64,000 bases of DNA. Origin: Candidatus Gastranaerophilales bacterium (GTDB lineage Bacteria; Cyanobacteriota; Vampirovibrionia; Gastranaerophilales; Gastranaerophilaceae). This document shows positions 39,543 to 54,187 of this stretch, one piece after another. The translations under genes were made by a program, and so were the position numbers. The notes beneath the pieces were generated by a model. It made no database searches. It had not been told where the DNA came from and saw nothing but the letters and a program-made list of their open reading frames with translations. Position 1 is the first letter of the stretch. Every line of letters begins with the position of its first letter. Where the stretch lies: the NCBI GenBank assembly GCA_947625305.1, contig CANQNW010000001.1, positions 62,001-126,000 of the forward strand, in the 5' to 3' direction.

Positions 39543-39572
39543 ATTATACCCCCCCCCGAAGAAAAATGTAAA
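39543..39572 (-). promoter_or_regulatory. Promoter with poly-G spacer (39064 gene)
   Basis: On the minus strand TTTACA (39572-39567), an 18-base spacer ending in G9, and a perfect TATAAT (39548-39543). Loss of one G would give the optimal 17-base spacing, gain would weaken it. Confidence 0.7.
39549..39557. repeat. Poly-C/G tract (9 bases) in promoter spacer
   Basis: Nine consecutive C on the plus strand (G on the coding strand), directly next to the -10 box of the 153-aa exported protein gene. Such tracts are prone to slippage. Confidence 0.9.
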
Positions 39573-40294: not shown

Positions 40295-40324
40295 TTGCAA
40301 CGGGGGGGGTAAAAATGGTATAAT
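40295..40324 (+). promoter_or_regulatory. Promoter with poly-G spacer (kelch gene)
   Basis: TTGCAA (40295-40300), an 18-base spacer containing G8, and a perfect TATAAT (40319-40324). Same layout as the promoter at 39543-39572: one G fewer gives 17 bases. Confidence 0.7.
40302..40309. repeat. Poly-G tract (8 bases) in promoter spacer
   Basis: Eight consecutive G between the -35 and -10 boxes of the kelch-repeat gene, in a region otherwise very poor in G. Confidence 0.9.
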
Positions 40325-50679: not shown

Positions 50680-51654
50680 TCAACAAATTAATAAGGCTAT
50701 TCTTCTATTAGTTTCAAGCATTTCAGCACTGATTTTATCAATTTTATTTCTTATTTCTTCTTTTGAATATTTATTATTAAAAAAGTTATCATATAATTCA
50801 TCATAAAGCATATCAAAAAGAAGAGAACGACCTTGGATTTTTAATTTTTTTACACCTAAATCAATAACTTTTTGAACTTGTTCTCCCGTAAGATGTACAT
50901 TTCTATACCCTTCTTTATATTTTGGACACAAACTGAAATGTTCATGTCCGCATTCTGTATCTGTCCAGTATTTAACTTTTCTTCTTTTTTCTATATCTCC
51001 GTCACATTCATCTATTTGAGCTAAAAAATCATAATGAGCTCTATGGTTTGAGCAATTAAAATGACAAGTCTGATTAATTAATACTTCTACTCTTGAAATA
51101 TCATTAAGCAGCTTATCAAGTTTATCGGTATTTTCTATAACATACTCGGGCCTTATTACTACAACTTCATATTTATCAAGCATTTCATTATAAAATCTTG
51201 TTTCATCAAAACCTTTTTCTTCCGTGTATTTAGTCATTGGCTGAAGAATAGAACAATGCAATTTTGCATTAGGATAACGGGATTTAATATGATTATATAA
51301 ATCATCTGTTGATACAAGAAATCTTGAGTTGCATTTATAAGCGATATCAAGCAGATTATTCGAATATTCATCGTTTAGGTTTTCTTTTGTATTTAAATTT
51401 GTAAATGTAAATGTTGGTATCACATTATATTTATTTGTTAATTTATTCAAATAATTTTCAATCAAAGTTAAATTATTGAATTTAAAAATAGCCGGTCTTG
51501 CACCTACACCCCACTTACAATAAGGACTGCCATATACATATTTTATAGGATTTTCATTTTCTAAAAGTTTATGCAAAATAGGAATAAAAATATCATTACA
51601 AAAAAGAAAAGGCATAAAATATTCTATATTACTATATCTTACTAACTTTTTCAC
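50680..51654 (-). CDS. Peptidase U32-like protein in RiPP-like operon
   Basis: 324 aa from GTG 51654, preceded by AAGGA with 8 bases spacing; it overlaps the radical-SAM gene by 23 bases. It shares with U32-like proteins the early KYVYGSPYCKWGVGARP (pattern YGS..G.GRP), the centre INQTCHFNCSNHRAHYDF and the later GVKKLKIQGR. Related to the gene at 43696. Tight coupling to a radical-SAM/SPASM enzyme and a small peptide gene suggests it processes or modifies that peptide, for example as a leader peptidase or a second metal-dependent modifying enzyme. Family assignment is by motif resemblance. Confidence 0.6.
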   Translation of the reverse strand: MKKLVRYSNIEYFMPFLFCNDIFIPILHKLLENENPIKYVYGSPYCKWGVGARPAIFKFNNLTLIENYLNKLTNKYNVIPTFTFTNLNTKENLNDEYSNNLLDIAYKCNSRFLVSTDDLYNHIKSRYPNAKLHCSILQPMTKYTEEKGFDETRFYNEMLDKYEVVVIRPEYVIENTDKLDKLLNDISRVEVLINQTCHFNCSNHRAHYDFLAQIDECDGDIEKRRKVKYWTDTECGHEHFSLCPKYKEGYRNVHLTGEQVQKVIDLGVKKLKIQGRSLLFDMLYDELYDNFFNNKYSKEEIRNKIDKISAEMLETNRRIALLIC

Positions 51655-53005
51655 TATTTTTTCCTTTTTTATCAAAATATACACTTTTTAATGCATTATA
51701 ATATGCTTTGGCATTTTCACAAGAAATAGGCTGTTTTTTCATAAAAGTATTATTATATGAAGAAGTATCAGGGCAATAAAAACAATATTTACAGTATTCT
51801 TCATCAAAACATTCAGTTAAATTTTTTCTGATGAACTTCTTTTTAAAATCCTTAAGTGTTGTTTCTTTAATCTCGACTAATGAAGTTTTATTCAGATTAC
51901 CCAAAACATAATCAAAAGCTACACAAGGCATAACATCGAGTCTGGGAGTAATACATAATCTATCTGAGCCTGCTTCACATATAAGATTATCATCTTTTTT
52001 AAATCTTGGTTTCATAAAAGGAAGTATTGGGGTTTTTTCCATATAGAATTTTTTTATTTCATCATATGTCATTTTTAAATGTAAATTGTTGTTTTCAGGA
52101 TTACTTGTAAATATACAGTTATCACCGTATATAGCCCCTATAGAATTTGCAAATTCTTGTACTTCCTTATAACTTTCTTTGTTATAAGATATTAGTTGTG
52201 TAGCAATTTTCATATGGATATTTGGATATTCTTTTGTCTTATTAATAGCATTCATTGTTTTTTGCCAAGAGCCTTTTACTCCTGTTATAGAATCATGAAC
52301 ATTTTCATCCATACTGTAAATGCTATATTGTATAAAAGAAGGATATAAATTTATAAATTTTTTAAATAATTCATCATTATCACTAAATGTTTGTCCGTTA
52401 GTAAAAACACAAAGTTTTAAGTATTTACTTCTGATATATTCACATATTTTAAGAAAATCCTTATTAATTGTACATTCACCACCGGTTAACCTGACTGTAA
52501 ATATACCCATATTATAAGCTTCGTCTATTGCTTTCTTTGCTTCTTCAAAAGATAAATACTTATCAATATTTTTATGGTTATAACAATGTTTACATTTTAA
52601 ATTGCAATTATAATTAAGTTCCAAAATTAATGCATTTATAAAGCCATGGCAAAGAGCAAATTCAGACATTTTAACATCGAAATACTGCATTTGTTTACTT
52701 GGTTTATCAAATATTTTGTTAGCCAAAAAATTATAATTTGATTTTTCAAAAGTTTTATCCGTTGTAATTATTTTTCTTTCTTTAAGTTCATATAATAAGG
52801 CCGATAATTCATTTTCTATATTATTATTTTTTGCATAAGACATTACTTCTTCAAAATCTTGATATTTGACAATTAAATCCCACAAAGTTGAACTTATCCC
52901 TTTCAAAAAATAATATACTTTATGTTTAGCATCTAAAATTAAGCTGACTGATACATTCTCACTAAGAAAATAAGTTCTTGTACAAATATATAAACATAAT
53001 TTCAT
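51632..53005 (-). CDS. Radical SAM/SPASM peptide-modifying enzyme with PqqD-like N-terminus
   Basis: 457 aa. Residues about 10-85 look like a PqqD-type peptide-recognition domain (ILDAKHKVYYFLKGISSTLW ... LKERKIITTD). The radical-SAM cluster ligands are Cys134, Cys138 and Cys141 (CNLKCKHC), with LTGGECT after it. The C-terminal SPASM part has CEAGSDRLCITPRLDVMPC and CKYCFYC for extra iron-sulphur clusters. This is the layout of enzymes that make carbon-carbon, thioether or epimer changes in small peptides. A 52-aa peptide gene lies immediately upstream. Confidence 0.9.
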   Translation of the reverse strand: MKLCLYICTRTYFLSENVSVSLILDAKHKVYYFLKGISSTLWDLIVKYQDFEEVMSYAKNNNIENELSALLYELKERKIITTDKTFEKSNYNFLANKIFDKPSKQMQYFDVKMSEFALCHGFINALILELNYNCNLKCKHCYNHKNIDKYLSFEEAKKAIDEAYNMGIFTVRLTGGECTINKDFLKICEYIRSKYLKLCVFTNGQTFSDNDELFKKFINLYPSFIQYSIYSMDENVHDSITGVKGSWQKTMNAINKTKEYPNIHMKIATQLISYNKESYKEVQEFANSIGAIYGDNCIFTSNPENNNLHLKMTYDEIKKFYMEKTPILPFMKPRFKKDDNLICEAGSDRLCITPRLDVMPCVAFDYVLGNLNKTSLVEIKETTLKDFKKKFIRKNLTECFDEEYCKYCFYCPDTSSYNNTFMKKQPISCENAKAYYNALKSVYFDKKGKNSEKVSKI

Positions 53006-53024: not shown

Positions 53025-53183
53025 TTAACAGTTAGAAAGATATATTTTTGTTATTCCGCCACCGGCACCCATAAAACAAACAGTAGCAATTAAAGGTTGA
53101 GGTGTTTCAATAATATCTTTAAATAAATCATTTATTTCATCCATTGAAATGTCCTGTAAACCATCCTCATCAAAATTGTTCAT
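53025..53183 (-). CDS. Putative RiPP precursor peptide (52 aa)
   Basis: ATG 53183 is preceded by AAGGAG with 7 bases spacing; stop TAA 53025-53027 is followed within 20 bases by the radical-SAM gene. The first 30 residues are acidic and helical (MDEINDLFKDIIETPQP), like leader peptides bound by PqqD-type domains. The last part TVCFMGAGGGITKIYLSNC has two cysteines framing a Gly-rich core, with Cys as the last residue. No similarity to a known peptide family is evident to me. Its role as substrate of the adjacent enzyme is inferred from position, size and composition. Confidence 0.75.
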   Translation of the reverse strand: MNNFDEDGLQDISMDEINDLFKDIIETPQPLIATVCFMGAGGGITKIYLSNC

Positions 53184-53195
53184 AATAATTCTCCT

Positions 53196-54150
53196 TTATC
53201 TTAACTTTAAACTTTTAAATAATTTTTTAAAGAATTTTTCTTTTAACATTTCTGAAGGTAAATAACCAGATACAGGGGTAAATGTCATTTCAGCAAAATA
53301 TAAATGATTGTTATACATCATCCAATCAACTCGAACAAATTTAAATCCTTCACAAAGAATTTTACTTAGTTTTAATGATTTTTTTACATAATCTTTGCTG
53401 TTCTCTATATCAATTCCTTCCGTGAAAGGTTCTGAATTTGCGCACCAAACTCCCATTTCTATACCTTTTTCATTTATATTGTCACGCATTAAAGGTTCTA
53501 TAAAAAGCTGCGGTTTAATATATTTGTATTGAATTTCAAAATCACTGTAACCAAAAAAAGACTGAGTAATCCAACTGTCAAATTTTTCTTTTATAACTTT
53601 AAACAGTAATTTATTTTCTAAAAATTGGGTTTTATCCTTTATAATCATATGCCACTTACAACCGTGGTTACACTTTATAACAAAGCTATCCGGCAATTCA
53701 CCAAAAGGAATATTATCAAAATTTTTACCTACCCAAAGAACAGGTTTTAAATATTCTTCACCTATTTTTTCCTTAATCCAATCTCTAACAAGAATTTTAT
53801 CGGTTAATATTGTTTTAATCGGAATATTATCATATATTTTTAGCCACTGGATTTTTTGATTTAAATTTTTAGGATGTTTTAAATTAAGTTTTTCACCTGT
53901 TTTCATATAATAAGCTTGACAAAGATATTTTGGATAATCTTTCTCAGCAAGGCTCATCATAAAGTCATAATTAAAAGCAGCTGCACCATTATTATTTTTT
54001 AAGTAAGTACCGGCATCAATACTGTAAGAATTAACTGTTTGTCTAAAACCATTAAAGAACTTTTTTAAAAATAAAGTTCCAAATCCCCCCCCCCGCGGCT
54101 AAATTCAGAGGGTTAAAAAATTTTGAAAAAATTTGTATTTGCTTATTCAT
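53196..54150 (-). CDS. TupA-like ATP-grasp protein, phase-variable (out of frame with G10)
   Basis: From internal Met 53960 the 254-residue body is intact: LNLKHPKNLNQKIQWLKIYD, DKILVRDWIKEKIGEEYLKP, FVIKCNHGCKWHMIIKD, CEGFKFVRVDWMMYNNHLYF and EMTFTP are typical of the TupA-like ATP-grasp family (capsule/teichuronopeptide-type synthesis). The true start is ATG 54150, directly after a promoter. From there the frame reads MNKQIQIFSKFFNPLNLAA into ten Gs and ends after about 32 codons. With nine or twelve Gs it continues as GFGTLFLKKFFNGFRQTVNS into the body, giving 317 aa with nine. The gene is therefore OFF in this sequence. It is first in the peptide/radical-SAM operon. Confidence 0.8.
54085..54094. 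repeat. Poly-C/G tract (10 bases) inside coding sequence
   Basis: Ten C on the plus strand, ten G in the coding direction, 18 codons after ATG 54150 of the TupA-like gene. The tract sets the reading frame: 9 or 12 is in frame, 10 is out. Confidence 0.92.
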
Positions 54151-54158
54151 AATAAATA

Positions 54159-54187
54159 ATCTTACAATTAAATTTTTTATATTTCAA
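54159..54187 (-). promoter_or_regulatory. Promoter of the TupA-like/RiPP operon, leaderless
   Basis: Minus strand TTGAAA (54187-54182), 17-base spacer, TAAGAT (54164-54159), then 8 bases to ATG 54150. No Shine-Dalgarno sequence. This places the transcription start at or within 2-3 bases of the ATG and supports that start codon. Confidence 0.6.

Follow-up and report, generated by a model that had tools for sequence, protein, structure and literature searches.

Is a TupA-like ATP-grasp gene that is interrupted by a run of G's a sequencing error, a gene in decay, or a gene that cells can turn off and on? This question is raised by a locus in a 64,000-nucleotide stretch of “Candidatus Gastranaerophilales” DNA (referred to here as the window), which belongs to a 1.97-Mb genome assembly of 26 contigs. 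From the ATG at position 54150, the minus-strand frame enters a tract of exactly 10 G and stops after 32 codons, giving the product MNKQIQIFSKFFNPLNLAAGGGIWNFIFKKVL followed by the stop, while the ATP-grasp body occupies a second, out-of-phase frame with 295 open codons. Joining the two frames requires 1 G less or 2 G extra, and the gene as assembled is out of frame (OFF). An earlier interpretation based on the letters and open reading frames of this DNA (the sequence-only reading) had located the tract, the start codon, and the early stop correctly to the base, and its claim that the joined frame carries no further lesion was confirmed. In the first 260 nt past the tract there are three in-frame ATGs (53960, 53957, and 53906), none with a Shine-Dalgarno sequence, and no known structured RNA was found at the tract.

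Table 1. Features of the locus, with positions in the window
Feature	Position	Strand	Basis
Predicted promoter, TTGAAA-17-TAAGAT, 8 nt short of the ATG	54159..54187	-	Consensus scan and homologue boxes
5' leader of the ATP-grasp gene, ATG 54150 to tract, 56 nt, encoding MNKQIQIFSKFFNPLNLA	54095..54150	-	Window sequence, homologues
G10 tract, proposed switch	54085..54094	-	Window sequence, run counts, genome-wide tract set
TupA-like ATP-grasp body, 295 codons, second frame	53196..54083	-	PF14305 (E = 5e-23); conserved positions
Putative precursor peptide gene, 52 aa, conserved leader (..ISMDEINDLFKDIIE..), variable tail	53025..53183	-	Homologue comparison
Radical SAM/SPASM protein, putative peptide maturase	51632..53005	-	PF04055 (6e-21), PF13186 (9e-6)
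Further insert gene, no family match above cutoff	50680..51684	-	Pfam and NCBIfam profile searches

The homopolymer is far longer than expected and is placed such that its length toggles the reading frame. At a GC content of about 31%, the window contains 6 matches to a run of 8 G, against 0.18 expected from shuffled sequences. In 302 kb, made up of the window and of sequence from relatives that was unselected for tracts, the run spectrum is bimodal, with 2 runs at length six, none at length seven, and six at lengths 8 to 10. Thus, something besides base composition maintains the long runs. Genome-wide, there are 65 G/C runs of at least 9 (40 nines, 20 tens, and 5 elevens) and 3 of exactly 7.

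The 65 long runs, together with two runs of eight, were classified within the stretches surrounding them. Thirty-three are intragenic and have their G's on the coding strand (19 of them in frame, 14 out of frame), and another ten are intragenic with C on the coding strand. The genes concerned include GT2, GT8, GT61, RgpF (rhamnan synthesis), UDP-galactopyranose mutase, DegT aminotransferase, WbqC, PEP mutase/cytidylyltransferase, four FkbM methyltransferases, and other methyltransferases, and a LicD gene sits behind a promoter tract; this spectrum of tract-bearing genes is that of known contingency loci. Three FkbM methyltransferase paralogues (L153:2942, L158:5352, and L172:4215) have similar short leaders and carry G9, G9, and G10, respectively, at the same place, one being in frame and two out of frame. 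Within 12 nt downstream of ten tracts lies a perfect TATAAT, compared with about 1.2 cases expected from the TATAAT density of the whole window, a value that would be somewhat higher in AT-rich intergenic DNA. Two of these ten promoter-spacer tracts lie in the window: a G9 at 39549-39557 (minus strand), directly against a perfect TATAAT (0 nt upstream of it), and a G8 at 40302-40309 (plus strand), 9 nt upstream of a perfect TATAAT and before a kelch gene. Kelch homologues elsewhere in the genome show the same promoter layout with G9.

Both MutS1 and MutL are present in this genome, and loss of mismatch repair is therefore not the explanation for the tracts. The presence of these genes counts against a switch, though slippage remains compatible with it. 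Four genomes of the same family have no MutL match and a divergent MutS below the mutS1 cutoff; their tract numbers range from none to many, without a consistent excess.

The sequence-only reading had proposed counting the G's in related genomes. At the orthologous site, the relatives compared have no match to the ATP-grasp, radical SAM, or third gene. Among homologous copies, a tract of G8 to G11 lies ahead of the body in 17 of 63 distinct TupA copies having upstream sequence. Tract length differs between close copies, with all phases represented. Four of the 16 interpretable tract-bearing copies are in frame, five need 1 G fewer, and seven need one more, a count in which three OFF leaders are less certain. 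In one genome (G020), neighboring tandem copies with near-identical promoters and leaders (about three substitutions) have 10 versus 9 G and are OFF versus ON, respectively, and in a genome of another genus (G286), two copies with an identical 45-nt leader again have 10 versus 9 G. The out-of-frame bodies that were checked are intact and under purifying selection even while out of frame, with dN/dS values of about 0.31 and about 0.22 for two pairs of OFF copies. In homologues without a tract, a comparable N-terminal segment is joined straight to the body.

These copies bear on an alternative in which programmed frameshifting or transcriptional slippage acts on a tract of fixed genomic length, such that some transcripts or ribosomes always shift and the gene is never fully OFF. 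Polymerase can slip on long homopolymers, and most TupA copies, although conserved, are out of frame in the assemblies, as this alternative would have it. However, a fixed shift predicts a single direction, and the presence of all three phases argues against it; the genomic tract length is not the same in near-identical copies, and some tracts lie in promoter spacers, where the reading frame is irrelevant. We regard programmed slippage as unlikely.

An error of assembly or base calling, with the true tract being fixed and in frame, is less probable still. All of the sequences are metagenome assemblies, which can miscall homopolymer length; long G runs are error-prone, and one contig-end poly-G run (in genome G013) looks artefactual. 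This counts against a switch, but such errors cannot generate about 65 long G runs that sit in promoter spacers and in genes of the contingency type, nor the gap at length 7, and a tract of miscalled length would remain a hypermutable switch site. The poorest candidate is a decaying pseudogene that was broken by the frameshift and is being lost, for which it can be said that the cassette is an accessory insert, that two loci of this genome have the leader and tract but no ATP-grasp body, and that two highly conserved residues are changed in the window copy, against which stand 295 open codons with no other lesion, the retention of 49 of 51 highly conserved positions, intact downstream peptide and radical SAM genes, and other out-of-frame homologues that are intact and under purifying selection.

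We therefore consider it likely (probability of about 0.8) that the G10 tract is a slipped-strand phase-variation (contingency) switch of a RiPP-like cassette, which is OFF as assembled. The contingency reading had been put forward from the sequence alone, and it now gains support from the tract enrichment, the occurrence of all phases, the one-G differences within duplicate pairs, and the intact OFF bodies. Its scope was too narrow, as about 65 such tracts exist in this genome and the position of the gene at the head of a RiPP-like cassette had been missed. The sequence-only reading knew of no description for this kind of organism, and our literature search combining phase variation with Gastranaerophilales or Melainabacteria likewise gave nothing relevant, the lone joint match being a flagellin survey.

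The claim that the start codon at 54150 has its own -35/-10 promoter is supported by the homologues and not by the window locus itself. A consensus promoter scan of this locus, taken alone, scores no better than shuffled sequences, while 11 of the 17 homologous tract-bearing copies have a TATAAT-like box exactly 6 nt 5' of the ATG. This spacing suggests leaderless transcripts, and the promoter predicted at the window locus likewise points to a transcript with no leader or almost none. The ATG and the tract are separated by 56 nt in the window and by exactly 53 nt in seven homologues.

What would the switch control? The body matches ATPgrasp_TupA (PF14305) with 82.3 bits, compared with a curated gathering cutoff of 25, and the protein is a putative amide ligase. 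An identity as a graspetide-type (RimK-like) ATP-grasp ligase was considered and rejected, since Pfam gives a match to TupA only and NCBIfam gives none; a search for a related solved structure found no credible match. The peptide gene begins 12 nt past the ATP-grasp stop in the window and 4 nt past it in most homologues. More than 20 TupA loci have a radical SAM neighbor, and in most of these the short gene separates the two. Its products have a common leader motif that approximates LSxxEINxLFxDIIE, and their mean pairwise identity is 45% in the leader versus 18% in the tail. A peptide profile search gave matches in 24 of 98 related genomes, 23 of the 24 being in this genus, with 9 matches in the present genome and up to 45 elsewhere. 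The cassette of an ATP-grasp, a peptide with a leader and hypervariable tail, and a radical SAM-SPASM protein recurs, almost only in this genus. Two genomes of the genus, G022 and G009, have 45 and 36 putative precursor genes, respectively, yet few G tracts; precursor expansion occurs there without obvious phase variation.

As in RiPP clusters, a putative short precursor with a conserved leader and a variable core lies beside a modifying enzyme. The N-terminal 110 residues of the radical SAM protein have no Pfam match, RRE included. Because this protein falls far below the NCBIfam cutoffs of the named maturases listed, no NCBIfam model names the short peptide, and a literature search found nothing that pairs a TupA-type ATP-grasp with a RiPP, we call the cassette RiPP-like rather than a proven RiPP cluster. 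ValS-DHH and SNF2 are syntenic in the relatives compared, in which the ATP-grasp, the radical SAM protein, and the third gene all lack a match between DHH and SNF2; the block is thus an accessory insert.

Some tracts may act on the peptide genes themselves. On contig C8 of this genome (L162:3002-3340, approximately 25.5 to 25.8 kb), a tandem pair of putative precursor genes has poly-C runs, C11 and C9, exactly at the leader/core junction, immediately 3' of the leader motif. At these lengths, both tails are shortened or translated in a different frame; two similar tails, ..RVAMDT..GCGGPK and ..RIAMDS..SCGGGK, lie in the alternative frames, and both would be read at ten C. Poly-C at the leader/core junction is not a general feature, as it was seen twice in this genome and in no other genome of 58 searched. 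At two further loci of this genome, L175:3030-3230 (contig C14) and L178 (near 3280, contig C17), a TupA-type leader and G tract directly precede a peptide gene without an ATP-grasp body, and at L178 the end of the leader frame overlaps the start codon of the peptide gene. This arrangement suggests that the switch may act downstream by translational coupling.

The proposed mechanism begins with slipped-strand mispairing at replication, which would add or remove G's at the tract and which we take to be frequent and reversible in living cells. Where the leader from ATG 54150 falls in frame with the ATP-grasp body, the gene would be ON; where it runs into the early stop, it would be OFF, and OFF cells would probably lack the ATP-grasp step. 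Because the next genes of the cassette encode a peptide with a leader and variable tail and a putative radical SAM maturase, the switch probably governs the making of a modified peptide, i.e., it would decide if one member of a modified-peptide family is produced, or completed, in a given cell. Translational coupling and transcriptional polarity may also reduce expression of the downstream genes, which is the least certain step. As a more tentative extension of the same reading, to which we give somewhat less than even odds, poly-G and poly-C tracts would randomly toggle single cassettes such that each cell has a different subset of modified peptides; the toggle would act within the first enzyme, while at one locus it would act where leader and core of the precursors meet.

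The tracts extend beyond this genome. Among 157 related genomes, nine-G matches range from 0 to over 500 per genome, and most of the tract-rich genomes belong to the same family. A pattern of TATAAT, six nucleotides, ATG, and a G run 42 to 66 nt further on occurs in 23 of the 288 genomes searched in the family. Some tracts found by this pattern in other genera precede type IV pilin-like bodies (..FTLAEVLITLGIIGIVAA..), mostly out of frame as assembled; at nine loci of these genera, G8 to G12 follows soon after the start codon of a type IV pilin-like gene. A DNA search of the genus gave no close copy, and a second strain of the locus, sought in viral contigs, gave no match. For the neighboring DHH-family gene, most of the nearest named relatives are “Candidatus Gastranaerophilales” metagenome assemblies, and several of them are labeled as animal gut.

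If the switch is real, these gut relatives of cyanobacteria, with about 65 tracts and with tracts widespread in the family, would be among the richest users of the strategy. Strong fluctuating selection on the surface would be indicated, perhaps from phages or hosts. With the putative RiPP cassette, the strategy would gain a novel type of target, a secondary metabolite being chosen at random within a clonal population.

The mechanism is already known; we found no description of it for this lineage and target. The best-known contingency loci driven by slippage come from a handful of host-adapted genera of proteobacteria. In Campylobacter jejuni NCTC11168, there are 29 polyG/C tracts of at least 7, of which 23 are coding (PMC8437040). 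The present genome resembles C. jejuni in having long G runs in AT-rich DNA that are mostly coding, clustered in surface-modification genes, and predicted to turn a frame ON or OFF; it differs in belonging to nonphotosynthetic relatives of cyanobacteria, in its approximately 65 runs of at least 9, in having a RiPP-like target as well, and in the presence of both MutS and MutL. In Neisseria, tracts in promoter spacers give rise to transcriptional phase variation. The tracts at 39549 and 40302, directly upstream of TATAAT boxes, are similarly placed, whereas the genes concerned are those of a gut commensal, kelch and LicD among them, and a transcriptional effect is predicted here from the layout. 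PF14305 is named after TupA of teichuronopeptide synthesis. The ATP-grasp belongs to this family by its score above the gathering cutoff, but instead of a teichuronopeptide locus, it is linked here to a radical SAM protein and a short variable peptide. With RiPP clusters and graspetides, the cassette shares a radical SAM/SPASM protein next to a short peptide that has a conserved leader and a variable core, as well as an ATP-grasp in the cluster, and with prochlorosins it shares the many precursor variants; unlike RiPP clusters and graspetides, it has no precursor family match, a radical SAM protein below the cutoffs of the named maturases listed, and an ATP-grasp of the TupA type.
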